NCBI GenBank assembly: GCA_018266775.1
Contig: JAFDZS010000011.1
Coordinates: 317,245-381,244 of the forward strand
Length of the DNA stretch: 64,000 nucleotides
Reading direction: 5' to 3'
Source of the DNA: Bacteroidota bacterium
Lineage (GTDB): Bacteria > Bacteroidota > Bacteroidia > Chitinophagales > Chitinophagaceae
Notes under the pieces: generated by a model
What the model was told of the DNA's origin: nothing
Database searches by the model: none
The model's input: the letters and a program-made list of their open reading frames with translations, nothing else
Program-made: the position numbers and the translations under genes
Shown here: piece after piece, positions 8,166 to 17,157 of the stretch
Layout of the letters: every line of letters starts with the position of its first letter
Position numbering within the stretch: position 1 is the stretch's first letter

Positions 8166-8957
8166 TCATCCGCGAACCTGTGCAATGAAGGCATTAGTGG
8201 TTTCTGCAATATCAGTGCTGTTTTCCAGTGCTTTAATGTAGGCGCTGCCAATGATGGCACCATTAGTATGTGCACAGGCTGCTGTAAACGTTGCATGATC
8301 CTTTATACCAAAGCCAACCAGTATGGGATTTTGCAGTTGCAGTTGCTGCAGCCGTTTAAAATAATCCTGCTGCGCTTCAATGGCTTTATTTTTTCCTGTT
8401 GTAGATGAAGAAGAAACGGCGTATACAAATCCGCTGCAAAGCTGATCAATTTTTTTTATTCTTTCATCGCTGGTTTCCGGTGTTACTAAAAAAATGAAAT
8501 GCAGGTGATGTTGTTCAAACAGTTTTTTATACATGGTTTCATACTCGAACATCGGCAGGTCGGGCAGAATAACACCATCCACTCCGGCAGCAGCGGCATC
8601 GGCACAAAATTGTTCTATGCCATATTGCAATACGGGATTCATATAACCCATCAGCAATACCGGCAATGTATGGCCAATGCCACCTTCTGCAATGTTGTTA
8701 CGCAGTTGCTGTAGTTGCTGAAACAAGACCTGCATGGTCATACCATTTTGCAGGGCAACAGAACTGCTGTGCTGTATCACTTCACCATCAGCAAGCGGGT
8801 CGCTGTACGGCATACCAATTTCAATAATGTCTGCACCGCCTTTCTGTAAAGCCTGCAATACTTCCATAGTGGATTGTACCTGCGGAAAGCCTGCGGTACA
8901 ATACATATTCAATACCTGTTGTTTCTTTTTGCTGAATAAAGCATCTAACCTGTTCAT
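8166..8957 (-). CDS. trpA: tryptophan synthase alpha subunit
   Basis: TrpA cleaves indole-3-glycerol phosphate to indole and glyceraldehyde 3-phosphate, and indole is channelled to TrpB. At 263 residues it has the usual length. The catalytic Glu lies in DIIEIGMPYSDPLADG, with the catalytic Asp in PLADG. GVILPDLP, GFGI and GAIIGSA form the barrel's later strands and phosphate site. It is the last biosynthetic gene of the operon and is separated from trpB by a small lipoprotein gene, whose stop is two bases upstream of the trpA start. No key residue is missing. Confidence 0.96.
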   Translation of the reverse strand: MNRLDALFSKKKQQVLNMYCTAGFPQVQSTMEVLQALQKGGADIIEIGMPYSDPLADGEVIQHSSSVALQNGMTMQVLFQQLQQLRNNIAEGGIGHTLPVLLMGYMNPVLQYGIEQFCADAAAAGVDGVILPDLPMFEYETMYKKLFEQHHLHFIFLVTPETSDERIKKIDQLCSGFVYAVSSSSTTGKNKAIEAQQDYFKRLQQLQLQNPILVGFGIKDHATFTAACAHTNGAIIGSAYIKALENSTDIAETTNAFIAQVRG

Positions 8958-8959
8958 GA

Positions 8960-9328
8960 TTAAAATTTATCTGTAGGAACAATTGCTATTGTTTGATCGC
9001 CGAGTTTAATGTGATGATAAGCGGGTTTTGCATCAATGTCCAAAGTAATTTTGAACAATGCTGTTTGCTTTGTGGGTGTTTTAAAATTCACGAGTAGGCT
9101 GTCGCCATTGCGGGTGATGGTGTAATCTTTGGAATCAAAATCTTCATCCAGGCAATACATAAACTCATACCGTTCCCCGTTGATGTTGGAGTTCATTTTT
9201 ATGGGTGGTTTATTACCGGTACAAGGCCCCATTTTCTCCACCTGCATAGATTGATTGATGAATGCATTACTGCAGGAACATATTCCCATTGCTGTAACAG
9301 TCAGTGCAATAAAAAATAGCTGTTTCAT
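8960..9328 (-). CDS. small lipoprotein embedded in the trp operon
   Basis: The 122-residue product has a lipoprotein signal (MKQLFFIALTVTAMGICSC) with a candidate lipidated cysteine at 17 or 19. The rest is short and beta-rich (GERYEFMYCLDEDFDSKDYTI...), with two further cysteines. The family is not recognised, and nothing in it suggests a role in tryptophan synthesis. It lies between trpB and trpA, with only two bases between its stop and the trpA ATG, so it must be co-transcribed with trpA. Its position may be a chance insertion tolerated by the operon, or it may reflect a need for shared expression. Confidence 0.7.
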   Translation of the reverse strand: MKQLFFIALTVTAMGICSCSNAFINQSMQVEKMGPCTGNKPPIKMNSNINGERYEFMYCLDEDFDSKDYTITRNGDSLLVNFKTPTKQTALFKITLDIDAKPAYHHIKLGDQTIAIVPTDKF

Positions 9329-9434
9329 ATTGTAATTCTTGTTTAAGATTATTATTAGATCCTTAACACCAGTTCAATCAGTGTTATCAGCGTTCTATCC
9401 TATAATCTGTATTACCGCAGCTGCGCAGATAATC

Positions 9435-9545
9435 TTTCATAAATCTGGCTCACAAAGGCACAGCGGCACAGAGAATATTCTTCGTTACTTTATTTACTTA
9501 TATACTTTATTTACTTGTATACTTCTTAGAAACACGAATTAACTG
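9435..9545. repeat. dispersed repeat fragments between trpB and the lipoprotein gene
   Basis: This intergenic stretch carries CTCACAAAGGCACAGCGGCA, then the AT-rich phrase TTTATTTACTTATATACTTT related to the 126-bp array at 2,692, then ACACGAATTAACTGATTAAC directly after the trpB stop (minus-strand reading). It appears to be a patchwork of the repeat families found elsewhere in the window. Confidence 0.7.
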
Positions 9546-9558
9546 ATTAACCAACACC

Positions 9559-10737
9559 CTACTCCATCTCCTTCATATACGTTGCCAGGTCCTTATCTCC
9601 CCTTCCACTTAAACAAACCACCACCACATCATCTTTTTTAAATGTAATCTTATTGAGTGCGTACAAAGCATGAGCACTTTCCAATGCAGGAATAATGCCT
9701 TCCAGTTTGCTTAATTCAAAAGCAGCTTCCAGTGCTTCTTTATCTGTTGCGCTTAAAAATGTGCCGCGGCCGGTTTCAAATAAATGAGCGTGGAGCGGAC
9801 CAATGCCGGGATAATCCAGTCCTGCGGAAATGCTGTGCGGCTCCACCACCTGTCCGTCTGCCGTTTGCATCAACAAACTTTTACTGCCGTGTAAAACACC
9901 GGGCTTGCCTAACTGTGTTGTAGCTGCACTCATACCACTGTTGATGCCGCAACCTGCTGCTTCAACAGCAATCAACCGAACGCTTTCTGCTTCTAAAAAA
10001 TGATAGAATGCCCCCGCCGCATTACTACCCCCACCCACACACGCAAATACATAACCTGGATTTTCAAGGCCGGTTTTTTCCAATAATTGTTTCTTTATTT
10101 CTTCACTGATCACACTTTGAAATTTTGCCACCATATCAGGGTATGGATGCGGCCCCACCACGCTGCCAATGATATAGTGTGTATCAACAGGATTATTGAT
10201 CCAGTCGCGGATGGCTTCGTTCGTTGCATCTTTCAATGTTTTGCTTCCGCTTGTTGCAGGTATTACTGTTGCGCCCAGCATTTTCATACGGGCTACGTTT
10301 GGTGCCTGCCGTTCAATATCTTTTTCTCCCATATACACAATGCACTGCAAACCTTTCAGTGCACAAACCGTTGCGGTGGCCACTCCATGCTGGCCGGCGC
10401 CGGTTTCTGCAATGATTCTCTTTTTGCCCAACCGTTCTGCCAATAAGATTTGCCCGATAGTATTATTGATTTTATGTGCACCGGTATGGCATAGATCTTC
10501 ACGTTTTAAATAAATGGCAGCGCCATATTTGGCACTCAATCTTGAGGCATAGAATAACGGTGTGGGACGACCGACATAATCCTGCAGCAGCTGATGAAAT
10601 TCTTTTTGAAATTGTTCATCCTGCATAATGCGCAAATATTCCTGCTGCAGCTGATGCACATTCGGGTACAACATCTCCGGAATGTATGCGCCTCCAAAAT
10701 TGCCGTAATAACCGTGTTCGTTAACTGTGTATTGCAT
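9559..10737 (-). CDS. trpB: tryptophan synthase beta subunit
   Basis: TrpB is the PLP enzyme that joins indole to L-serine to make L-tryptophan, in an alpha2-beta2 complex with TrpA. At 392 residues it has standard length. The PLP lysine lies in [13 protein letters not shown], the substrate loop is [14 protein letters not shown], the phosphate-binding loop is GGGSNAAG, and the C-terminal CLSGRGDKD is conserved. It starts at the ATG at 10,737, after a 236-base gap downstream of the first trpF. The gap is unusual within an operon and contains short repeated phrases rather than a gene. Confidence 0.97.
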
Positions 10738-10973
10738 TGTTATTTTTTATCCCGCCCTGCGGAATTATTTTTTGTGAAACCAGCACATATAATACTATTG
10801 AACTGCATTGGCATCGTTCGCAGAACCCTGTGGGCACTCTTCAACTTTAAATCGTTATGCATCATTTTCCAATGTCGCCCCGATGGGTCTTTAATAACTA
10901 TCAACTGTCATCTATCATCTCCCAACCATCAACATTCAACCATTTCACAGAACCCTGCGGGCAACTTTCAACC
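10738..10973. repeat. intra-operon spacer with repeated phrases
   Basis: The 236-base gap between trpF and trpB holds two similar copies of a phrase. On the plus strand these are CAGAACCCTGTGGGCACTCT near 10,821 and CAGAACCCTGCGGGCAACTT near 10,949, each followed by a CAAC-rich run. A short inverted sequence (CCGCCCTGCGG) lies near 10,752. No open frame or promoter was convincing. Confidence 0.5.
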
Positions 10974-11603
10974 TCATTTCATCGCCTGCACAAACGCCAG
11001 TACTTTTGCCATATCTTTTACGCCGGGTTCTTTCTCAAACTGGCTGTTGATGTCTACACCGTAATAATCCGGGTGGCTGAATTTTTTCAGTTGTTTTGCA
11101 TCATCCATTCCAATACCACCACTGATGAAAAATGGCTTTTCAATTTTGGCTTTCTTTAGAATGGCCCAGTCGAATTTTTGTCCTGTTCCGCCAGTGGCGC
11201 CATCGGTGGTTTTCGTATCAAAGAGATAATAATCACACACTGCATCATAATCTGCCACCAATTCATCAATATCAGTAGTGGTTGCGTCAACATTAAATAC
11301 TTTGATCACTTCCACTTCGTTGCTCAGGTCTTCGCACATCTCCGGGCTTTCATCGCCGTGCAGTTGTACAATATCCAATCCATATTCATCAATAGCATCC
11401 AGCACATCAATCATTTCAGGATTTTTAAATACGCCTACTTTTTTCAAATCGAAGTCAGCATTTTTCACAGCTTCTTTGTCTAATTGTTCGCCAACATAAC
11501 GTGGTGAATCTTTTACAAAAATCAATCCCGCAAATGGGATTTGCAAGCCGTCTAACTGCTGCAGTTGTTTGAATTGCGTAATACCGCAAACTTTAATATT
11601 CAT
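10974..11603 (-). CDS. trpF: phosphoribosylanthranilate isomerase, copy 1
   Basis: TrpF isomerises phosphoribosylanthranilate to CdRP, the third step of tryptophan synthesis. This 209-residue copy keeps the general base Cys6 in KVCGIT, VGVF, VQLHG, the general acid Asp129 in LFDTK, GGTGQKFDW and the phosphate loop ISGGIGMDDA, ending VDINSQFEKEPGVKD. It is the more canonical of two adjacent trpF genes. The two are about 40% identical by eye, so they are not a recent duplication. It follows copy 2 after an 85-base gap. Confidence 0.93.
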   Translation of the reverse strand: MNIKVCGITQFKQLQQLDGLQIPFAGLIFVKDSPRYVGEQLDKEAVKNADFDLKKVGVFKNPEMIDVLDAIDEYGLDIVQLHGDESPEMCEDLSNEVEVIKVFNVDATTTDIDELVADYDAVCDYYLFDTKTTDGATGGTGQKFDWAILKKAKIEKPFFISGGIGMDDAKQLKKFSHPDYYGVDINSQFEKEPGVKDMAKVLAFVQAMK

Positions 11604-11688
11604 ACTTCATTTTAATTTTGGATAATGGATGATTCAATCAGTGTTACACCAGTATCATCTATCTTACTATATCCTGTTTACAATATTG

Positions 11689-12318
11689 TTACACCAGTTG
11701 CCTGGTAAATTGTTTGATCAGTTCTATATTTTTTACGCCGGGCATCGTTTCAAACCGGGTGCTGATGTCAATTGCAAACAATGCTTTTGCTTCGGGCAGT
11801 TGTACAAAATCATTTAAACGCTTTGCATCACCGGGGTCAATCATTCCGCTGAGAAAATAAGGTTTACCCACCACTACACCATGCAGTTTTTCCATGTTAA
11901 ACTTTTTTCCTGTGCCACCATAACCCACGCCTTCTGTATCGAACATGAACATATCACAATAATCCATGTATTCCTGTATGCGCCACCCGATGTTATCCGA
12001 CTCACTGAAACGAAATGCTTTTACCACCGAAATATAGTCTGCAATCTTTTCACAAAACTTTGGTGTTTCATCACCATGCAATTGAACCATGTGCAGGCGG
12101 CATTCATCCACCATTTGCAAAATCTCATCCACAGATGCATTTACAAACACGCCCACTTTGTTCAGCTTGTTTTCTTTTTTGATCTGGCTGGTGGTCATGT
12201 GGCGCAATACATAACGTGGCGATTTAGGATAAAAAATAAAACCGGCAAAGGACACACCCGCATCGGGCAATTGATGCAACTGTTCTTCCTGCGTAATGCC
12301 GCATACTTTTACTCTCAT
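11689..12318 (-). CDS. trpF: phosphoribosylanthranilate isomerase, divergent copy 2
   Basis: This second 209-residue TrpF homologue keeps Cys6 in KVCGIT, VGVF, VQLHG, Asp127 in MFDTEG and GGTGKKFN. Both catalytic residues are therefore present. It differs at the usual phosphate loop, where the paired glycines are replaced (FLSGMIDPGDA), and in FAIDISTRFETMPGVKN. Its start overlaps the trpC stop by four bases (ATGA), so it is translationally coupled to trpC, whereas copy 1 is not coupled. It could be a redundant isomerase, or could have shifted to a related Amadori rearrangement. The sequence does not decide. Confidence 0.88.
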   Translation of the reverse strand: MRVKVCGITQEEQLHQLPDAGVSFAGFIFYPKSPRYVLRHMTTSQIKKENKLNKVGVFVNASVDEILQMVDECRLHMVQLHGDETPKFCEKIADYISVVKAFRFSESDNIGWRIQEYMDYCDMFMFDTEGVGYGGTGKKFNMEKLHGVVVGKPYFLSGMIDPGDAKRLNDFVQLPEAKALFAIDISTRFETMPGVKNIELIKQFTRQLV

Positions 12319-13106
12319 GTTGTTTGCTGTTTAAGCAGGGTGACAAAATCAGCAAATGCAATCGTTGGGTCGGGTTGTTTCATAAAGTTTTCTCCAATTA
12401 AAAAACCTTTGAAGCCCGCATTTCTGAAGGTACAAATTGTATCAATATGGTCAATACCGCTCTCTGCTATTTTCACTTTATCAGCCGGAATTTTTTTCCC
12501 CAATTCCAGCGACCTGTTGATATCTACCGTAAACGTCTTTAAATCCCTGTTGTTGATACCCACTAAATGAACAGCGTCACAAATATGTGCCAGTTCATCT
12601 TCTGTATGCAGTTCCAGCAATACCTCCAGTTGCAGGCTTTGTGCATAACGGGCAAGCGTTTCCACCCGCTGTGGCATTAAACATGCGGCAATCAGTAAAA
12701 TCACATCTGCACCCATGGCACGGGCCTCGGTAATTTGGTATTCATCAATAATAAAATCCTTGCGCAAAATGGGAATATTATTTACCCGTGCTTTGATCAG
12801 ATCGTCGGTACTGCCACCAAAGAAGTTGGTATCAGTAAGCACTGATAAACCACTGGCGCCATGTTTTGTATACGCACCGGTTACCTGCACCACATCTGCT
12901 GTTCCGTTAATAATGCCTTTTGATGGTGAGCGTCTTTTAAATTCTGCAATAATGCCCGTTTTATTTTCATCCAGTAAAAATTGTTTTAAAGACAAGGTGG
13001 TTCTTTTAAAACCTTCCTGCTGCAGCAGTAAAGATTCCGGCACCGCTGCTTTTGCAGCGCTTACTTCTTTATGTTTATGTGCGATGATGGTATCGAGAAT
13101 GTTCAT
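12315..13106 (-). CDS. trpC: indole-3-glycerol phosphate synthase
   Basis: TrpC closes the indole ring, converting CdRP to indole-3-glycerol phosphate with loss of CO2 and water. It has 263 residues, the usual length for the unfused enzyme. The catalytic Lys lies in IIAEFKRRSPSKG. LRKDFIIDEYQ, the Glu of LLELHTE, GINNRDLKTF and IAESGI are all present. It overlaps trpD upstream and trpF copy 2 downstream by four bases each, forming a tightly coupled trpD-C-F block. In many bacteria trpC and trpF are fused, but here they are separate. Confidence 0.96.
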   Translation of the reverse strand: MNILDTIIAHKHKEVSAAKAAVPESLLLQQEGFKRTTLSLKQFLLDENKTGIIAEFKRRSPSKGIINGTADVVQVTGAYTKHGASGLSVLTDTNFFGGSTDDLIKARVNNIPILRKDFIIDEYQITEARAMGADVILLIAACLMPQRVETLARYAQSLQLEVLLELHTEDELAHICDAVHLVGINNRDLKTFTVDINRSLELGKKIPADKVKIAESGIDHIDTICTFRNAGFKGFLIGENFMKQPDPTIAFADFVTLLKQQTT

Positions 13107-14098
13107 GACTGCACGCTGATTAATTGTTGTAATGATTGATATGCCTTACCACTTTCCAGGCTCTCCACCGCTGCATGATAACAATTTTCGTAACTGTTAT
13201 ATTTACCGGTACACTGCAATGCCATGGCGGAATTAGCGAGTACCACTGCATTCTGCGCCCAGGTGCCTTCACCTTTCAATATCTTTAAAAATATTTTTGC
13301 TGCATCTTCAACAGTGTTGCCGCCATAAATATCTTCTGCATTTACCATGCGTTTGCCTAAAGTTTCAGCACTGAAAATTTTTTCACCGGTATTGGTAATG
13401 ACTTTAGTATCGCCTGTTAAAGAAATTTCATCGTATCCATCCAATGCATGAATGATGGTGAACGCATTGCCTGTGTGCTGCAGCAGGTAATTATAAATTC
13501 TTGCCATTTCCAAATTGTACACGCCCACCAATTGATATTTTGGAAAAGCAGGGTTCACCATTGGGCCCAGCATATTAAAAAATGTACGTACACCCAAATT
13601 TTTACGAATAGCACCTACTGCTTTTAGTGCAGGGTGAAACATGGGCGCATGCAGAAAACAAATTCCTGCTGCATCAATTTCCTGTTGCAGTTTGGCGGTA
13701 TCGTTTTTAAATTGATACCCCAATTGCTCCATCACGTTACTGCTGCCGCTTACAGAAGTTGCCCCGTAGTTACCATGTTTGGCCACTTTGTTGCCCGTAC
13801 CTGCCACAATAAAACAACTGAGTGTGGAAATGTTGAACGTGTTTTTTCCATCGCCGCCGGTGCCAACAATATCAATTACATCACCACCGTTGAGGTCAAC
13901 ACGCACACATAATTCCAGTAGTGCATCACGAAAGCCCTGCAATTCATCAATAGTGATGCTGCGCATGAGAAACACGGTGATGAATGCCGCAATTTCACTT
14001 TCATTATACATATTCTTCGATATATTCACCAGCACTTCCTCTGCCTGTGCACGGGAAAGTGTTTTATGTTCGAAGAGATAGTGGAGTATTTTTTTCAT
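13103..14098 (-). CDS. trpD: anthranilate phosphoribosyltransferase
   Basis: TrpD transfers phosphoribose from PRPP to anthranilate, the second step of the pathway. The 331-residue protein has an N-terminal helical domain and the PRPP-binding loop IVGTGGDGKNTFNIST, then KHGNYGATS and SGSSNVMEQLG, and FLHAPMFHPALK in the anthranilate tunnel. All are characteristic of the family. It ends in a four-base overlap with trpC. A 104-base gap of repeat sequence separates it from trpG upstream. Confidence 0.96.
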   Translation of the reverse strand: MKKILHYLFEHKTLSRAQAEEVLVNISKNMYNESEIAAFITVFLMRSITIDELQGFRDALLELCVRVDLNGGDVIDIVGTGGDGKNTFNISTLSCFIVAGTGNKVAKHGNYGATSVSGSSNVMEQLGYQFKNDTAKLQQEIDAAGICFLHAPMFHPALKAVGAIRKNLGVRTFFNMLGPMVNPAFPKYQLVGVYNLEMARIYNYLLQHTGNAFTIIHALDGYDEISLTGDTKVITNTGEKIFSAETLGKRMVNAEDIYGGNTVEDAAKIFLKILKGEGTWAQNAVVLANSAMALQCTGKYNSYENCYHAAVESLESGKAYQSLQQLISVQS

Positions 14099-14104
14099 TG
14101 TACT

Positions 14105-14220
14105 GTCAGAACTATTTTTTTTATCACGAATTAAAACGAATTACACGAATTAACCAGTAAACACGAATTTTTACGAATTACACGAATTGACCAATTAACC
14201 AGTTAACCATTTAACCAATT
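14105..14220 (-). repeat. stop-anchored TTAATTGG / TTCGTGTAATTCG element after trpG
   Basis: Read on the minus strand, the end of trpG runs directly into TTGGTTAAATGGTTAACTGG and then repeated AATTCGTGTAATTCG phrases, filling the gap to trpD. The last trpG codons (Asn-Trp-Leu-Asn-Gly-stop) appear to be encoded by the element itself. The same kind of sequence, in the same orientation, follows the stops of trpB, the 27,445 gene, the 31,399 permease and the 32,031 methyltransferase. Confidence 0.75.
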
Positions 14221-14787
14221 CCTTATTATCTGCTCCCCATCCGGCGTTAACACACTTTCAGGATGAAACTGCACGCCCTGCACATCAAAAGTTTTATGCT
14301 GCAGCGCCATAATATAACCGTTGGCATCAGTAGCTGTCACTTCCAATTCACCAGGAAAACCATTATTATTTACTATCCAGCTGTGGTAACGACCAACTGG
14401 AATACTACCAGTTAAGCCCTCAAACAATTGCGGTTGATGCGTTAATTTTTCCGAAGCAACAATATCAATACCGGTAGCCACACCATGATACACAGTACTC
14501 AGGTTGGTTAATGTACCGCCAAAAGCCTCGCCAATGGCCTGGTGCCCCAAACATACGCCCAGTATAGATTTGGTGGGAGCATACTGTTTGATCAACGGTA
14601 ATAGCAACCCTGCTTCCGATGGAATACCCGGCCCGGGTGATAAAATAATTTTATCATACGCCTGTACCGCATCCAATGCAATTTCATCGTTGCGGAATAC
14701 ATCCACTTTTTCATTGGTGATCTTTTCCACCAGGTGTACCAGGTTGTAAGTAAAAGAATCGTAGTTGTCGAATACTAATATTTTCAT
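14203..14787 (-). CDS. trpG: anthranilate synthase glutamine amidotransferase subunit
   Basis: TrpG hydrolyses glutamine and passes ammonia to TrpE for anthranilate synthesis. The 194-residue class I amidotransferase has the oxyanion motif SPGPGIPSEAG, nucleophile Cys79 in GVCLGHQAIGEAFGG and the His/Glu pair in VQFHPES. Homologues like this can also serve p-aminobenzoate synthesis (PabA), but its position inside the trp operon favours TrpG. Its C-terminal codons merge into an intergenic repeat. It lies 111 bases after trpE. Confidence 0.94.
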   Translation of the reverse strand: MKILVFDNYDSFTYNLVHLVEKITNEKVDVFRNDEIALDAVQAYDKIILSPGPGIPSEAGLLLPLIKQYAPTKSILGVCLGHQAIGEAFGGTLTNLSTVYHGVATGIDIVASEKLTHQPQLFEGLTGSIPVGRYHSWIVNNNGFPGELEVTATDANGYIMALQHKTFDVQGVQFHPESVLTPDGEQIIRNWLNG

Positions 14788-14898: not shown

Positions 14899-16317
14899 TT
14901 ATATTTCCTGCGCCAGCACAATGGCCTGTTTTAATGCATTTAATTTATTGTTCACTTCCTGCAATTCACTTTCGGGTTTACTTGCAGCCACTACTCCTGC
15001 CCCGGCCTGGTACACCAATGTATTATCCCGGCTTAAAAAGGTTCTGATCATGATGGCATGATTTACAGTGCCGTTAAAACCAATGATCCCGATTGCCCCG
15101 CCGTAATATCCCCGCGCCGTGGGTTCATAAGCATCTATCAGCTGCATGGCTTTGAATTTAGGTGCGCCGCTTAACGTTCCGGCAGGGAATGTAGTGGCCA
15201 TTAATCCAAATGGATTTGATTCCGGTGTAACCGTTCCTGTTACTTCGCTCACCAAATGGATCACATGACTATAGTAGTTGATTTTTTTGTATTGCGTTAC
15301 TTCAACATGGTGGCACATGCGGCTGAGATCATTGCGGGCAAGATCCACCAGCATCACATGCTCTGCATTTTCCTTTTCATCTGCTTCCAGTGCTTTGGCA
15401 AGCGCCTGGTCTGTTTCATCATCTCCTGTTCTTTTAAAGGTTCCGGCTATGGGATGTACAATGGCTGTATTGTTCTGAACAATTAACTGGCTTTCCGGGG
15501 ATGAGCCCATGAGTTTATAATCTCCATAGTCAAAATAAAATAAATAAGGCGAAGGGTTGATGCTGCGCAATGCCCGGTACACATTGAACTCATCGCCAGT
15601 GAAACGTTGTTCAAAACGGCGGCTTAATACAATCTGGAATACATCACCACGCAAACAACTGCTGATTCCTTTTCTTACCATTTCCATATACGCTTCGTTG
15701 GTAAGGTTAGATGTTTCTTCCCCTGCCGCTTTAAAAGGAAATGCCGGTACATCCCTGCTCCTGATGAGGCTTTCCACCACAGGCAATTCACTTTCTATCC
15801 CTTTAATTACATTCTCACAAATGAACAGTTCATCTTTAAAATGATTAATAACGATCACGTATTGATACAACCGGTAACGCATTAACGGTATAGCCTCTTT
15901 AGCAGCCGGCTGTTCCTTATGTAATGTAATGGAATCGAAAAACTGTACTGCATCAAAGGAAGTATAACCAAATAATGCCTGTGCCATTGCCACCTGTTTT
16001 GTTGCAGCAGGTATTATTTCAAAGTAATTCATGAAATCGCCGCACAATGCCGGTACTGCAGCTGTGTTTTGAATGGCCTGCCGTTCGGGTTTCATTCCCG
16101 GTAATTTAAATTCCATATACTGCGTATTGGAAATTTCTATACCGGCAATAGCATTGATGCCAATAAAAGAATAGCTGTTCTCTCCAGCGTGAAAATCTGT
16201 ACTCTCCAGCAGAATGGTATCACGGAAACGGTCACGCAACCGCAGGTAAATGCCCACCGGTGTGTACACATCAGCAAGGAGTTTTTTAAATGTTGTTTCG
16301 ATTGTAATGCGCTTCAT
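14899..16317 (-). CDS. trpE: anthranilate synthase component I
   Basis: TrpE makes anthranilate from chorismate using ammonia from TrpG, the committed step. The 472-residue protein has the N-terminal tryptophan-binding domain with LLES at 36-39, the segment in which mutations relieve feedback inhibition in enteric TrpE, so it is probably feedback-sensitive. The chorismate-binding domain includes PSPYLFYFDYGD, GSSPE, PIAGTFKRTGDDETD, DLARNDLSRM, FPAGTLSGAPKFKAM and YYGGAIG. It is the first structural gene of the operon. A leader peptide gene with three Trp codons and a terminator hairpin lies directly upstream. Confidence 0.97.
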   Translation of the reverse strand: MKRITIETTFKKLLADVYTPVGIYLRLRDRFRDTILLESTDFHAGENSYSFIGINAIAGIEISNTQYMEFKLPGMKPERQAIQNTAAVPALCGDFMNYFEIIPAATKQVAMAQALFGYTSFDAVQFFDSITLHKEQPAAKEAIPLMRYRLYQYVIVINHFKDELFICENVIKGIESELPVVESLIRSRDVPAFPFKAAGEETSNLTNEAYMEMVRKGISSCLRGDVFQIVLSRRFEQRFTGDEFNVYRALRSINPSPYLFYFDYGDYKLMGSSPESQLIVQNNTAIVHPIAGTFKRTGDDETDQALAKALEADEKENAEHVMLVDLARNDLSRMCHHVEVTQYKKINYYSHVIHLVSEVTGTVTPESNPFGLMATTFPAGTLSGAPKFKAMQLIDAYEPTARGYYGGAIGIIGFNGTVNHAIMIRTFLSRDNTLVYQAGAGVVAASKPESELQEVNNKLNALKQAIVLAQEI

Positions 16318-16321
16318 ATAA

Positions 16322-16355
16322 TGAAATTAAAAAACCCGGCAACTTGTGCCGGGTT
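16322..16355 (-). terminator. trp attenuator: intrinsic terminator before trpE
   Basis: On the minus strand, AACCCGGCA (16,355-16,347) pairs perfectly with TGCCGGGTT (16,341-16,333) around a five-base loop, followed by a T-rich run (TTTTTAATTT). It ends only a few bases before the trpE ATG. The 5' arm and loop contain GGCACAA (16,350-16,344), which is exactly complementary to TTGTGCC (16,395-16,389) just after the leader peptide stop. The two structures are mutually exclusive, so this is a terminator/antiterminator switch. Confidence 0.9.
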
Positions 16356-16388
16356 CAACTATGTATAAACGTATAACAATAGCAATGT

Positions 16389-16395
16389 GGCACAA
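16389..16395 (-). promoter_or_regulatory. antiterminator segment of the trp leader
   Basis: TTGTGCC follows directly after the leader peptide TGA. It can pair over seven bases with GGCACAA in the terminator's 5' arm and loop. A ribosome that reaches the stop codon would cover it. A ribosome stalled at the Trp codons (16,411-16,419) would leave it free. The adjoining CCAC could alternatively pair with GTGG within the Trp codons. Confidence 0.8.
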
Positions 16396-16449
16396 TCAAC
16401 CGATTATGCTCCACCACCAATTTTTGTTATATGAACTATGTTTTGTCAT
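16396..16449 (-). CDS. trpL: trp operon leader peptide with three consecutive Trp codons
   Basis: A 17-codon frame, MTKHSSYNKNWWWSIIG then TGA, lies between the candidate trp promoter and the terminator hairpin before trpE. Codons 11-13 are TGG TGG TGG. Tryptophan is rare, so three in a row in a tiny frame at this exact place is the hallmark of ribosome-mediated attenuation. When Trp-tRNA is scarce the ribosome stalls at these codons, the antiterminator forms and the operon is transcribed. When Trp is plentiful it reaches the stop codon and termination follows. The mechanism is inferred from sequence and from the classic enteric example. Confidence 0.88.
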   Translation of the reverse strand: MTKHSSYNKNWWWSIIG

Positions 16450-16457
16450 TTGTAGTG

Positions 16458-16489
16458 CAAATATGGAGTCAAAATTTTAATTGGGCAAA
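16458..16489 (-). promoter_or_regulatory. candidate trp operon promoter (Bacteroidota type)
   Basis: On the minus strand, TTTG (16,489-16,486), 20 bases, then CATATTTG (16,465-16,458) fits the Bacteroidota consensus TTTG-N(~19-21)-TAnnTTTG at all but one position. Transcription would begin a few bases before the leader ATG at 16,449, so the leader peptide mRNA would have almost no 5' untranslated region. Confidence 0.6.
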
Positions 16490-16511
16490 TTTTTTTACAG
16501 GTGTACCTTTA
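16481..16511 (+). promoter_or_regulatory. candidate promoter of the NAD(P)-binding protein gene
   Basis: On the plus strand, TTG (16,481-16,483), 20 bases, then TACCTTTA (16,504-16,511) matches TTG-N-TAnnTTTG except for the last base. It is divergent from, and overlaps, the trp promoter's upstream element, so the two promoters share their -33 region. The gene start is 16 bases downstream. Confidence 0.5.
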
Positions 16512-16527
16512 ATAAAATCATCTTCCC

Positions 16528-17157
16528 ATGAATATTATTGTTTTTGGCGCTACTGGTATGGTGGGCAAACAACTGGTACAACAGGCTTTGCTGAACGGAG
16601 ATTCCGTTAAAGCATTTGGCAGAAATGTGTTTACTGAATTTGATACCAAAACCAGTAACCTTGAACTGATCAAAGGCGCTTTGTTTGACGAAGGCGAAGT
16701 ACTGGCTGCTTTAAAAGGTACCGATGCGGTGGTTTCTGCAATAGGCGGTGGGTTTGATGGTGTGGATAAAACCCGTACGCTCGGTATAAAAAATATTATT
16801 GCGCAAATGAAAAAAGCCGGTATAAAAAGAATTATTGCTGTTGGCGGTGCCGGTGTATTGAATGCAGGCGAACATACTTTGCTGGCAGATACAGAAAATT
16901 TCCCCAAAGAATTTGTACCTGTCAGTAAAGAACATGAACAGGCTTATTGGTATTTGAAAGAAAGCGGCCTGGACTGGACTTTTGTGTGCCCTCCCGTAAT
17001 TAAAGCTCATAAAGCCACCGGTTCTTTTCATACCAAAGCCAATTATCTTCCTGAGCCCAATAACAATGTGATATATTCGGGGGATCTGGCTTTATTTATG
17101 TTAGCTGAAATTAAACAGAATGAATTTGTACGGGAAAGAGTAGGTATTTCCAATTGA
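16528..17157 (+). CDS. NAD(P)-binding atypical short-chain dehydrogenase family protein
   Basis: The product is a 209-residue Rossmann-fold protein of the NAD(P)H-binding / NmrA-like type. The dinucleotide motif is IIVFGATGMVGKQLV at the very N-terminus, followed by an Arg in KAFGRN that could select NADP, then VVSAIGGG and IIAVGGAGVLNAG. No classical YxxxK catalytic pair stands out, as in other atypical SDRs that act as flavin or quinone reductases or as regulators. The substrate is unknown. It is transcribed away from the trp operon and ends at a hairpin terminator shared with the convergent DUF4382 gene. Confidence 0.85.
   Translation: MNIIVFGATGMVGKQLVQQALLNGDSVKAFGRNVFTEFDTKTSNLELIKGALFDEGEVLAALKGTDAVVSAIGGGFDGVDKTRTLGIKNIIAQMKKAGIKRIIAVGGAGVLNAGEHTLLADTENFPKEFVPVSKEHEQAYWYLKESGLDWTFVCPPVIKAHKATGSFHTKANYLPEPNNNVIYSGDLALFMLAEIKQNEFVRERVGISN

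Follow-up and report, generated by a model that had tools for sequence, protein, structure and literature searches.

A predicted ribosome-mediated attenuator of the trp operon in a Chitinophagaceae genome

The trp operon and its leader region

The window analysed here is a 64,000-nt stretch of DNA from a Bacteroidota bacterium (Chitinophagales; Chitinophagaceae; assembly GCA_018266775.1, contig JAFDZS010000011.1, 317,245-381,244). It carries a trp operon preceded by a short leader ORF, with the following features in window coordinates.

14899..16317, minus strand: trpE, the first structural gene (PF04715, PF00425)
8166..14787, minus strand: trpG, trpD, trpC, two trpF copies, trpB, an ORF without a Pfam match, and trpA (Pfam)
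16396..16449, minus strand: leader ORF trpL, 17 codons, stop included in the coordinates, peptide MTKHSSYNKNWWWSIIG (sequence)
16449-16447, minus strand: leader start codon ATG (sequence)
16411..16419, minus strand: sensor, three Trp codons in a row, TGGTGGTGG (sequence)
16398-16396, minus strand: leader stop codon TGA (sequence)
16389..16395, minus strand: antiterminator strand TTGTGCC, immediately 3' of the stop codon (sequence, genus covariation)
16344..16350, minus strand: segment 3, GGCACAA, partner of the antiterminator strand and part of the terminator 5' arm and loop (sequence, covariation)
16355-16333, minus strand: 9-bp core of the intrinsic terminator, AACCCGGCA-CAAGT-TGCCGGGTT (sequence)
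16332..16356, minus strand: intrinsic terminator with its G-U pair included, nine Watson-Crick pairs plus one G-U, loop CAAGT (-16.3 kcal/mol)
16334-16329, minus strand: T run of the terminator (sequence)
16402..16419, minus strand: segment 1, the Trp codons and the next bases, 5' side of the 1:2 hairpin (fold)
16380..16397, minus strand: segment 2 side of the 1:2 hairpin, including the antiterminator strand (fold)

Within the operon, the tandem phosphoribosylanthranilate isomerase genes (the two trpF copies, 10974-12318, minus strand) are 39% identical. The 122-aa ORF between trpB and trpA (8960-9328, minus strand) had no Pfam match at E 1e-5 and, by eye, has a lipoprotein-like N terminus. 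Elsewhere in the window lies a small SRP RNA (RF04183, 28530-28636, minus strand, 88.1 bits).

An earlier, sequence-only reading had described a 17-codon leader peptide with three consecutive Trp codons (16,411-16,419), TTGTGCC (16,389-16,395) directly after the leader stop, and a 9-bp terminator (16,333-16,355) whose 5' arm and loop hold the exact complement GGCACAA. The sequence confirmed each of these, and all coordinates given there were correct to the base; two parts had been overlooked, namely the 1:2 hairpin (16419-16402/16397-16380) and a promoter motif (16489-16486/16465-16458). The short leader ORF upstream of the biosynthetic operon carries consecutive codons for the operon's end product, and an intrinsic terminator separates that ORF from the first structural gene. 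The leader stop is 78 nt upstream of the trpE ATG, which itself begins 14 nt past the end of the terminator.

Three adjacent Trp codons in an ATG ORF occurred in none of the shuffled upstream regions (109 upstreams, each shuffled 100 times with dinucleotides preserved), and a search of both strands of the 64-kb window for ATG...WWW ORFs no longer than 40 codons gave a single further case (9671-9609). When the 30 nt following the Trp codons were shuffled 20,000 times, about 1% of the shuffles contained a perfect complement of at least 7 nt to the terminator 5' arm and loop. Within the window alone, the complementarity of the strands is suggestive and not decisive, and it is the relatives that decide.

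Folds and predicted promoter of the leader RNA

The enteric trp attenuator is a four-segment scheme. In E. coli trpL, a leader peptide with two Trp codons is combined with 1:2, 2:3 and 3:4 helices. We folded the window leader in the state corresponding to each ribosome position. Up to 16380, the leader folded at -18.4 kcal/mol into a hairpin of 16419-16402 with 16397-16380, with the Trp codons on one side and the antiterminator strand on the other; the region of this 1:2 hairpin alone gave -18.3 kcal/mol (z -2.44). Folds and helix counts thus place segment 2 in a 1:2 hairpin when no ribosome is present, although RNAalifold did not recover this helix. When everything 5' of 16399 was masked to mimic a ribosome stalled on the Trp codons, the TTGTGCC/GGCACAA helix formed (-12.3 kcal/mol) until the RNA reached 16337, and under the same mask the terminator was the better fold once the RNA had grown to 16336 or further. 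When the mask extended to 16385, to mimic a ribosome at the stop codon, the terminator formed together with a small upstream hairpin and the antiterminator could not form.

At equilibrium, with the 3' arm made and the Trp codons masked, the terminator was more stable than the antiterminator (-19.5 versus -12.3 kcal/mol), so the antiterminator must win by timing. Judged on sequence and folds, the antiterminator is exclusive with the terminator and can be masked by a ribosome on the stop codon, not by one on the Trp codons; the masked folds support the same claim in the sequence-only reading. In these models the four-segment enteric scheme is present, provided that the antiterminator wins by timing. 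The likeness to enteric trp logic proposed earlier was upheld, and with the overlooked 1:2 hairpin the scheme is fuller than had been stated.

The sequence-only reading had named transcription starting beyond the leader frame as evidence that would count against it. The best predicted promoter match lies instead just upstream of the leader ATG, with the following parts.

16486..16489, minus strand: candidate -33 element TTTG, 20 nt upstream of the -7 box
16458..16465, minus strand: candidate -7 box CATATTTG, matching 5 of 6 informative letters of the Bacteroidota consensus TAnnTTTG
16453, minus strand: predicted transcription start, an A, placed by setting the box at -12 to -5, giving a 5' UTR of about 4 nt

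The octamer CATATTTG itself recurs in 36 of 100 same-family leaders. A TAnnTTTG box with 5-6 of 6 letters was found in 88/100 of these leaders versus 374/2000 control windows, and 90/100 versus 405/2000 had TTTG on the 5' side of that box at a distance of 16-27 nt, in a scan that favours leaders, as it took the best of several possible ATGs for each leader and one position for each control window. The distance from the end of the -7 box to the leader ATG was 4-9 nt in 88 of the 100 leaders (7 nt in 51). According to parts of the Flavobacterium psychrophilum transcriptome study, sigma-A sites in that species have the box at -12 to -5 (PMC9723704), which for a gap of 4-9 nt implies a 5' UTR of 0-5 nt, and of 4 nt in the window. 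Thus, the leader is probably nearly leaderless. 5' UTRs of 0-5 nt are rare among ordinary genes: excerpts of the available reports give 5.5% of genes as leaderless in F. psychrophilum (PMC9723704) and about 3.7% of 5' UTRs as shorter than 10 nt in B. thetaiotaomicron (PMC7366714). Between the leader and trpE, the only candidate for a second promoter was TACGTTTA at 16373-16366, which has no TTTG 16-27 nt upstream; a start from it would anyway precede the terminator. Compared with E. coli trpL, the window has a similar Trp-codon leader, three helices and the same predicted logic, and differs in having three Trp codons and a leader that is probably almost leaderless.

Leaders and helices among relatives

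A TrpE search matched 144 of 147 same-family genomes, some of them at paralogue level only. We fetched 110 trpE upstream regions and dropped one (L107, TrpE start unaligned), leaving 109. The runs of Trp codons that the sequence-only reading had proposed looking for in related trpE upstreams were present: 103/109 regions, including the window, contained an ATG ORF with at least two adjacent Trp codons within 450 nt, and 92/109 contained WWW. Dinucleotide shuffles yielded 0.0147 (two or more) and 0.00000 (WWW) such ORFs per upstream, and the antisense strand yielded 0/109. A first scan that allowed other start codons also gave 103/109, with L008 in place of L053 among the misses. Both a leader and a terminator no more than 110 nt from the leader stop were found in 100/109 regions, and in these 100 the terminator ended 8 to 190 nt from trpE.

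Within the window's genus, 41 of 49 upstreams had an ATG ORF with adjacent Trp codons. Inspection of the remaining eight by eye revealed W-x-W leaders in five (L241, L244, L246, L247, L248) and no Trp leader in L222, L223 and L251. Beyond the family, TrpE was matched in 254/296 genomes of a wider phylum search and 61 + 20 loci were read; adjacent-Trp leaders occurred in 57/61 loci (59 of the order or class, with L125 and L170 from another class) and in 14/20 loci hand-picked from different families elsewhere in the phylum, counts that admit ATG, GTG or TTG starts and carry no shuffle control. Adjacent Trp codons in the type of ORF scanned were thus absent from 6/109 family, 8/49 genus, and 4/61 and 6/20 outer upstreams. 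By eye, some upstreams of this kind had W-x-W, a single W or an ATG-less WWW before a terminator, and others nothing recognisable. TrpE itself was matched at E 1e-80 or better in 52/93 genomes of the genus and in 39/67 of the more complete ones, which suggests frequent loss of tryptophan synthesis in the genus.

The commonest same-family leader peptides ended in WWWHTN..RGL and WWWHTN.SGV. In leaders of this type the antiterminator is CGGGG, located towards the 3' end of the ORF, where it occurs in two different reading frames, and it pairs with a GCCCCG terminator arm. In the window's genus the antiterminator strand followed the stop codon in 35/35 aligned loci; by eye, it precedes the stop in three further genus members outside that alignment (L250, L252, L253), and in L098, from another genus, the window's own ATTGTGCC sits before the stop. 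The distance from the last Trp codon to the antiterminator start was 12-18 nt in 82/100 same-family leaders, and that to the antiterminator core was 15 or 16 nt in 31/35 genus leaders. This conserved distance would place the antiterminator just outside a ribosome stalled on the Trp codons. In L033, L065, L087, L095 and L096, a strand GCTGTG near the ORF end complements the terminator loop and 3' arm (CACAGC) and not the 5' arm; this subgroup, to which L033 was assigned by eye only, would represent a different way to block the terminator.

We examined base pairing in three alignments: 85 of the 100 loci with both leader and terminator (the other 15 have differently arranged antiterminators), the 55 of these 85 that form the CGGGG class, and 35 sequences of the genus (36 references from 49 genus loci, with L239 left out). 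As the sequence-only reading had suggested looking for, the alternative pairing was present in relatives, with pair-preserving changes in the helices. Own antiterminator/terminator duplexes scored 18.43 versus 16.29 when partners were swapped (sd 0.25, maximum 17.14, 1000 swaps), and in the 24 sequences without GGGG the values were 19.06 and 14.73, with 0/2000 as high as the observed. Across the 35 genus sequences the antiterminator was paired in 88.5% of cells (shuffled 83.5%, slid 17.8-48.0%), with pair 35:83 being UA in 20, CG in 13, UG in 1 and unpaired in 1, and the terminator was paired in 95.7% of cells, again with pair-preserving changes. One position shared by both helices changes in three strands. 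On a TrpE tree of the 27 genus members with full trpE this entailed 6 label changes, and the commonest three-strand state takes 5 changes, 2 of them forced by well-supported branches.

Within the CGGGG class, 90.8% of cells were paired in the 1:2 helix, 81.8% in the 2:3 helix and 97.7% in the 3:4 helix. On this measure each helix exceeded its 500 shuffles and its slid versions (for the antiterminator, 0/500 shuffles reached the observed value), with the shuffle controls leaving the relatedness of the sequences in place. Two-sided pair changes in the 2:3 helix did not exceed shuffles, being reached by 283/500 in the CGGGG class and 81/500 in the genus. Both sides had changed in 7/19 pairs of the 1:2 helix in the CGGGG class, and all three helices show pair-preserving changes among relatives. 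RNAalifold recovered only the terminator from the whole 85- and 35-sequence alignments, so the 1:2 and 2:3 helices were counted on named structures and single folds. When the terminator 3' arm was removed from the genus alignment it returned a 4-pair antiterminator core (-1.27), and it gave no consensus 1:2 helix on the cut genus or 85-sequence alignments. The modelled 1:2 helix of the genus rests on single folds, in which the region averaged -13.5 kcal/mol (z -2.04) for the 35 genus sequences and -17.4 kcal/mol (z -2.35) for 97 others. The ORF, all the strands, their conservation and their covariation can be read in the sequences themselves.

Known systems, mechanism and alternatives

A Trp peptide leader of Bacteroidetes, Bacteroid-trp (RF01692), was predicted in 2010, as parts of Weinberg et al. 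describe (PMC2864571). It resembles the window element in being a cis-regulatory Trp leader before trpE in Bacteroidetes, with an ATG ORF whose Trp-run codons pair in a hairpin, and in the alignment the end of the model resembles the start of the terminator; the antiterminator sequence of the window appeared unrelated by eye. We ran Rfam at an E-value threshold on 16 of 110 same-family and 13 outer loci. RF01692 matched upstream of trpE in 4/13 outer loci (L121, L127, L132 and L136; 76.2, 74.5, 69.1 and 49.8 bits). Its cut-off of 49 bits was reached by 0/16 same-family loci (one match at 41.7 bits, the other 15 giving none at E up to 1), and in the window it had no match in 16250-16560 even at E 10. 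RF00513 (Trp_leader, cut-off 41 bits) likewise had no match there at E 10, and gave sub-threshold matches of 26.2-28.7 bits in 5/16 relatives. At gathering score, Rfam returned nothing at the leader site; at E 10, the matches to 16250-16560 were all to unrelated families, chiefly sRNAs, with scores far short of the respective cut-offs. In its place before trpE, its Trp-codon hairpin and its phylum, the window copy is a divergent member of the predicted kind that lies outside RF01692 by score, and the likeness of place, parts and pairing makes it probably a homologue. The current Rfam model overlooks it, as it does all 16 same-family loci tested against the cut-off.

This kind of attenuator had already been predicted for the phylum and is not new. 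In F. psychrophilum, which belongs to the same phylum and a different family, parts of an RNA-seq study report strong signs that leader peptides attenuate amino-acid operons, with conserved 5' elements before pheA, hisG and others (PMC9723704), and an excerpt of another paper names a Bacteroid-trp RNA upstream of its trp operon (PMC6414381); structured 5' regions before amino-acid operons are shared with the window, in a different species. The sequence-only reading knew of no experimental example in Bacteroidota, and we found no direct experimental test of such an attenuator there in open-licence papers, but the prediction behind RF01692 had escaped it. What is added here is the 1:2 hairpin, the covariation, the near-fixed spacing from codons to antiterminator, a leader that is probably almost leaderless, and the breadth of occurrence.

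We also looked for similar leaders in the window's own genome. A scan for TGGTGGTGG hit 342 places and was uninformative. With a genus covariance model the window leader scored 79.2 bits and the next candidate 29.7, and no second Trp leader was seen among the 150 of 4117 first-look candidates that were scored. Reading by eye pointed to candidates of similar build for his, ilv and phe, and possibly for thr. A His-rich leader ORF, MIKFIHIHHRHTLLFG, lies upstream of hisG (L197:1082-1132, G000:C13) and is followed by a terminator; GTAAGC across its stop complements GCTTAC of the terminator arm, and HHHH leaders precede hisG in the relatives L199 and L200. Before ilvD, a leader ORF MLNNGINNVIKNIAIIIVVVIIIPALHGGGIG (ending AIIIVVVIIIPALHGGGIG; L206:1034-1132, G000:C6) is followed by a strong terminator and is a candidate branched-chain amino-acid attenuator; Ile/Val-rich small ORFs also precede ilvD in L202 and L205. 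hisG was found in 4/20 and ilvD in 7/20 genomes searched, own genome included. A Phe-rich leader, MISKGNHSFFYFSYYFTNRPGCFC, precedes a prephenate dehydratase gene (L294:1340-1414), and in the weakest of these cases a Thr/Ile-containing ORF, MAYSKSHIASLSKIGYPAFGTTIITTTIR (ending GTTIITTTIR), precedes an aspartate kinase gene (L295:1319-1408).

We consider it very probable that the window element is a ribosome-mediated transcription attenuator of the trp operon, a reading in which we infer the start site, leader translation, stalling and the response to tryptophan. RNA polymerase would initiate some 4 nt ahead of the leader ATG; close behind the polymerase, a ribosome loaded at the nearly leaderless 5' end would translate the leader ORF. 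With ample charged tRNA-Trp, the ribosome would arrive at the stop codon and cover TTGTGCC (according to PMC4833913, a ribosome there can extend up to 12 nt beyond the stop), the 3:4 terminator would form, and transcription would end before trpE. With charged tRNA-Trp scarce, a stall on the Trp codons would break the 1:2 hairpin and leave TTGTGCC free to pair with GGCACAA; the terminator would then form too late and the operon would be transcribed. If the leader were not translated, the 1:2 hairpin would keep TTGTGCC and termination would occur by default.

It has to be weighed whether the peptide rather than the RNA is the effector. In TnaC, a nascent chain arrests the ribosome with free tryptophan, and a Trp leader peptide might do likewise or act in trans, leaving attenuation secondary. 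The residues after the Trp run are indeed conserved in much of the family (HTN in 51/100), yet the HTN codons pair in the 1:2 hairpin (CAUACAAAC with UUGUA and UG), the occurrence of CGGGG in two reading frames (the RGL and SGV endings) implies that RNA and not peptide is kept there, and the window peptide has little of the WWWHTN consensus beyond its Trp run. An apparent conserved peptide signal (HTN, RGL) was accordingly set aside, since the same letters pair in the RNA and CGGGG is used in two frames. A second role for a Trp leader peptide does have a precedent in peTrpL of Sinorhizobium meliloti, as described in parts of PMC7298713, where the trpL ATG forms the 5' end of the attenuated RNA and the cells accumulate the peptide. 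That system resembles the window in having its leader ORF at the extreme 5' end (predicted in the window), and belongs to a different phylum; the trans roles are those described for peTrpL. Overall, we regard an effector peptide as very unlikely.

Even less probable is a constitutive terminator, or the end of a small RNA, with an incidental ORF, the operon being controlled by a repressor protein that binds DNA or by RNA in some other way (T-box, TRAP-like). At equilibrium no fold is stronger than the terminator, and a terminated leader would be a short RNA, both as this explanation would have it, but the Trp codon runs are far above chance, the antiterminator spacing is conserved and the alternative helix covaries. 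No cis-regulatory RNA family appeared in the window at Rfam gathering score, and the 15 Rfam matches that 16250-16560 gave with E no higher than 10 included no T-box. We give next to no credence to the idea that the leader ORF, as a short ORF upstream of a structural gene, chiefly feeds ribosomes to trpE by reinitiation, as in the antenna model set out in parts of PMC4833913. Bacteroidetes leader-to-gene distances peak at 11-14 bp in the same parts of that paper, whereas here 78 nt and a terminator lie between the leader stop and the trpE ATG, a geometry that speaks against reinitiation.

Attenuation by a translating ribosome, if extended to the whole set of observations, leads to a joint reading that we hold at about even chances. 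Amino-acid operons of Bacteroidota would be anciently and generally controlled by ribosome-mediated attenuation via nearly leaderless leader ORFs. Shine-Dalgarno pairing is weak or not relied on in Bacteroidota; at the same even chances, a start codon 0-5 nt from the 5' end would let the ribosome load as the RNA emerges, without such pairing. It is equally balanced whether the codon-to-antiterminator ruler has stayed constant in evolution while the stop codon, frame and pairing sequence drift, and there is a one-in-two prospect that one genome may carry the full set (trp, his, ilv, phe, thr). Apart from that reading, the analysis adds conservation, and base-pair evidence at all three helices, to what was a single predicted attenuator, from a phylum where translation does not depend on Shine-Dalgarno pairing. 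Its probably almost leaderless ORF and nearly fixed codon-to-antiterminator distance offer test objects for ribosome-polymerase coupling.
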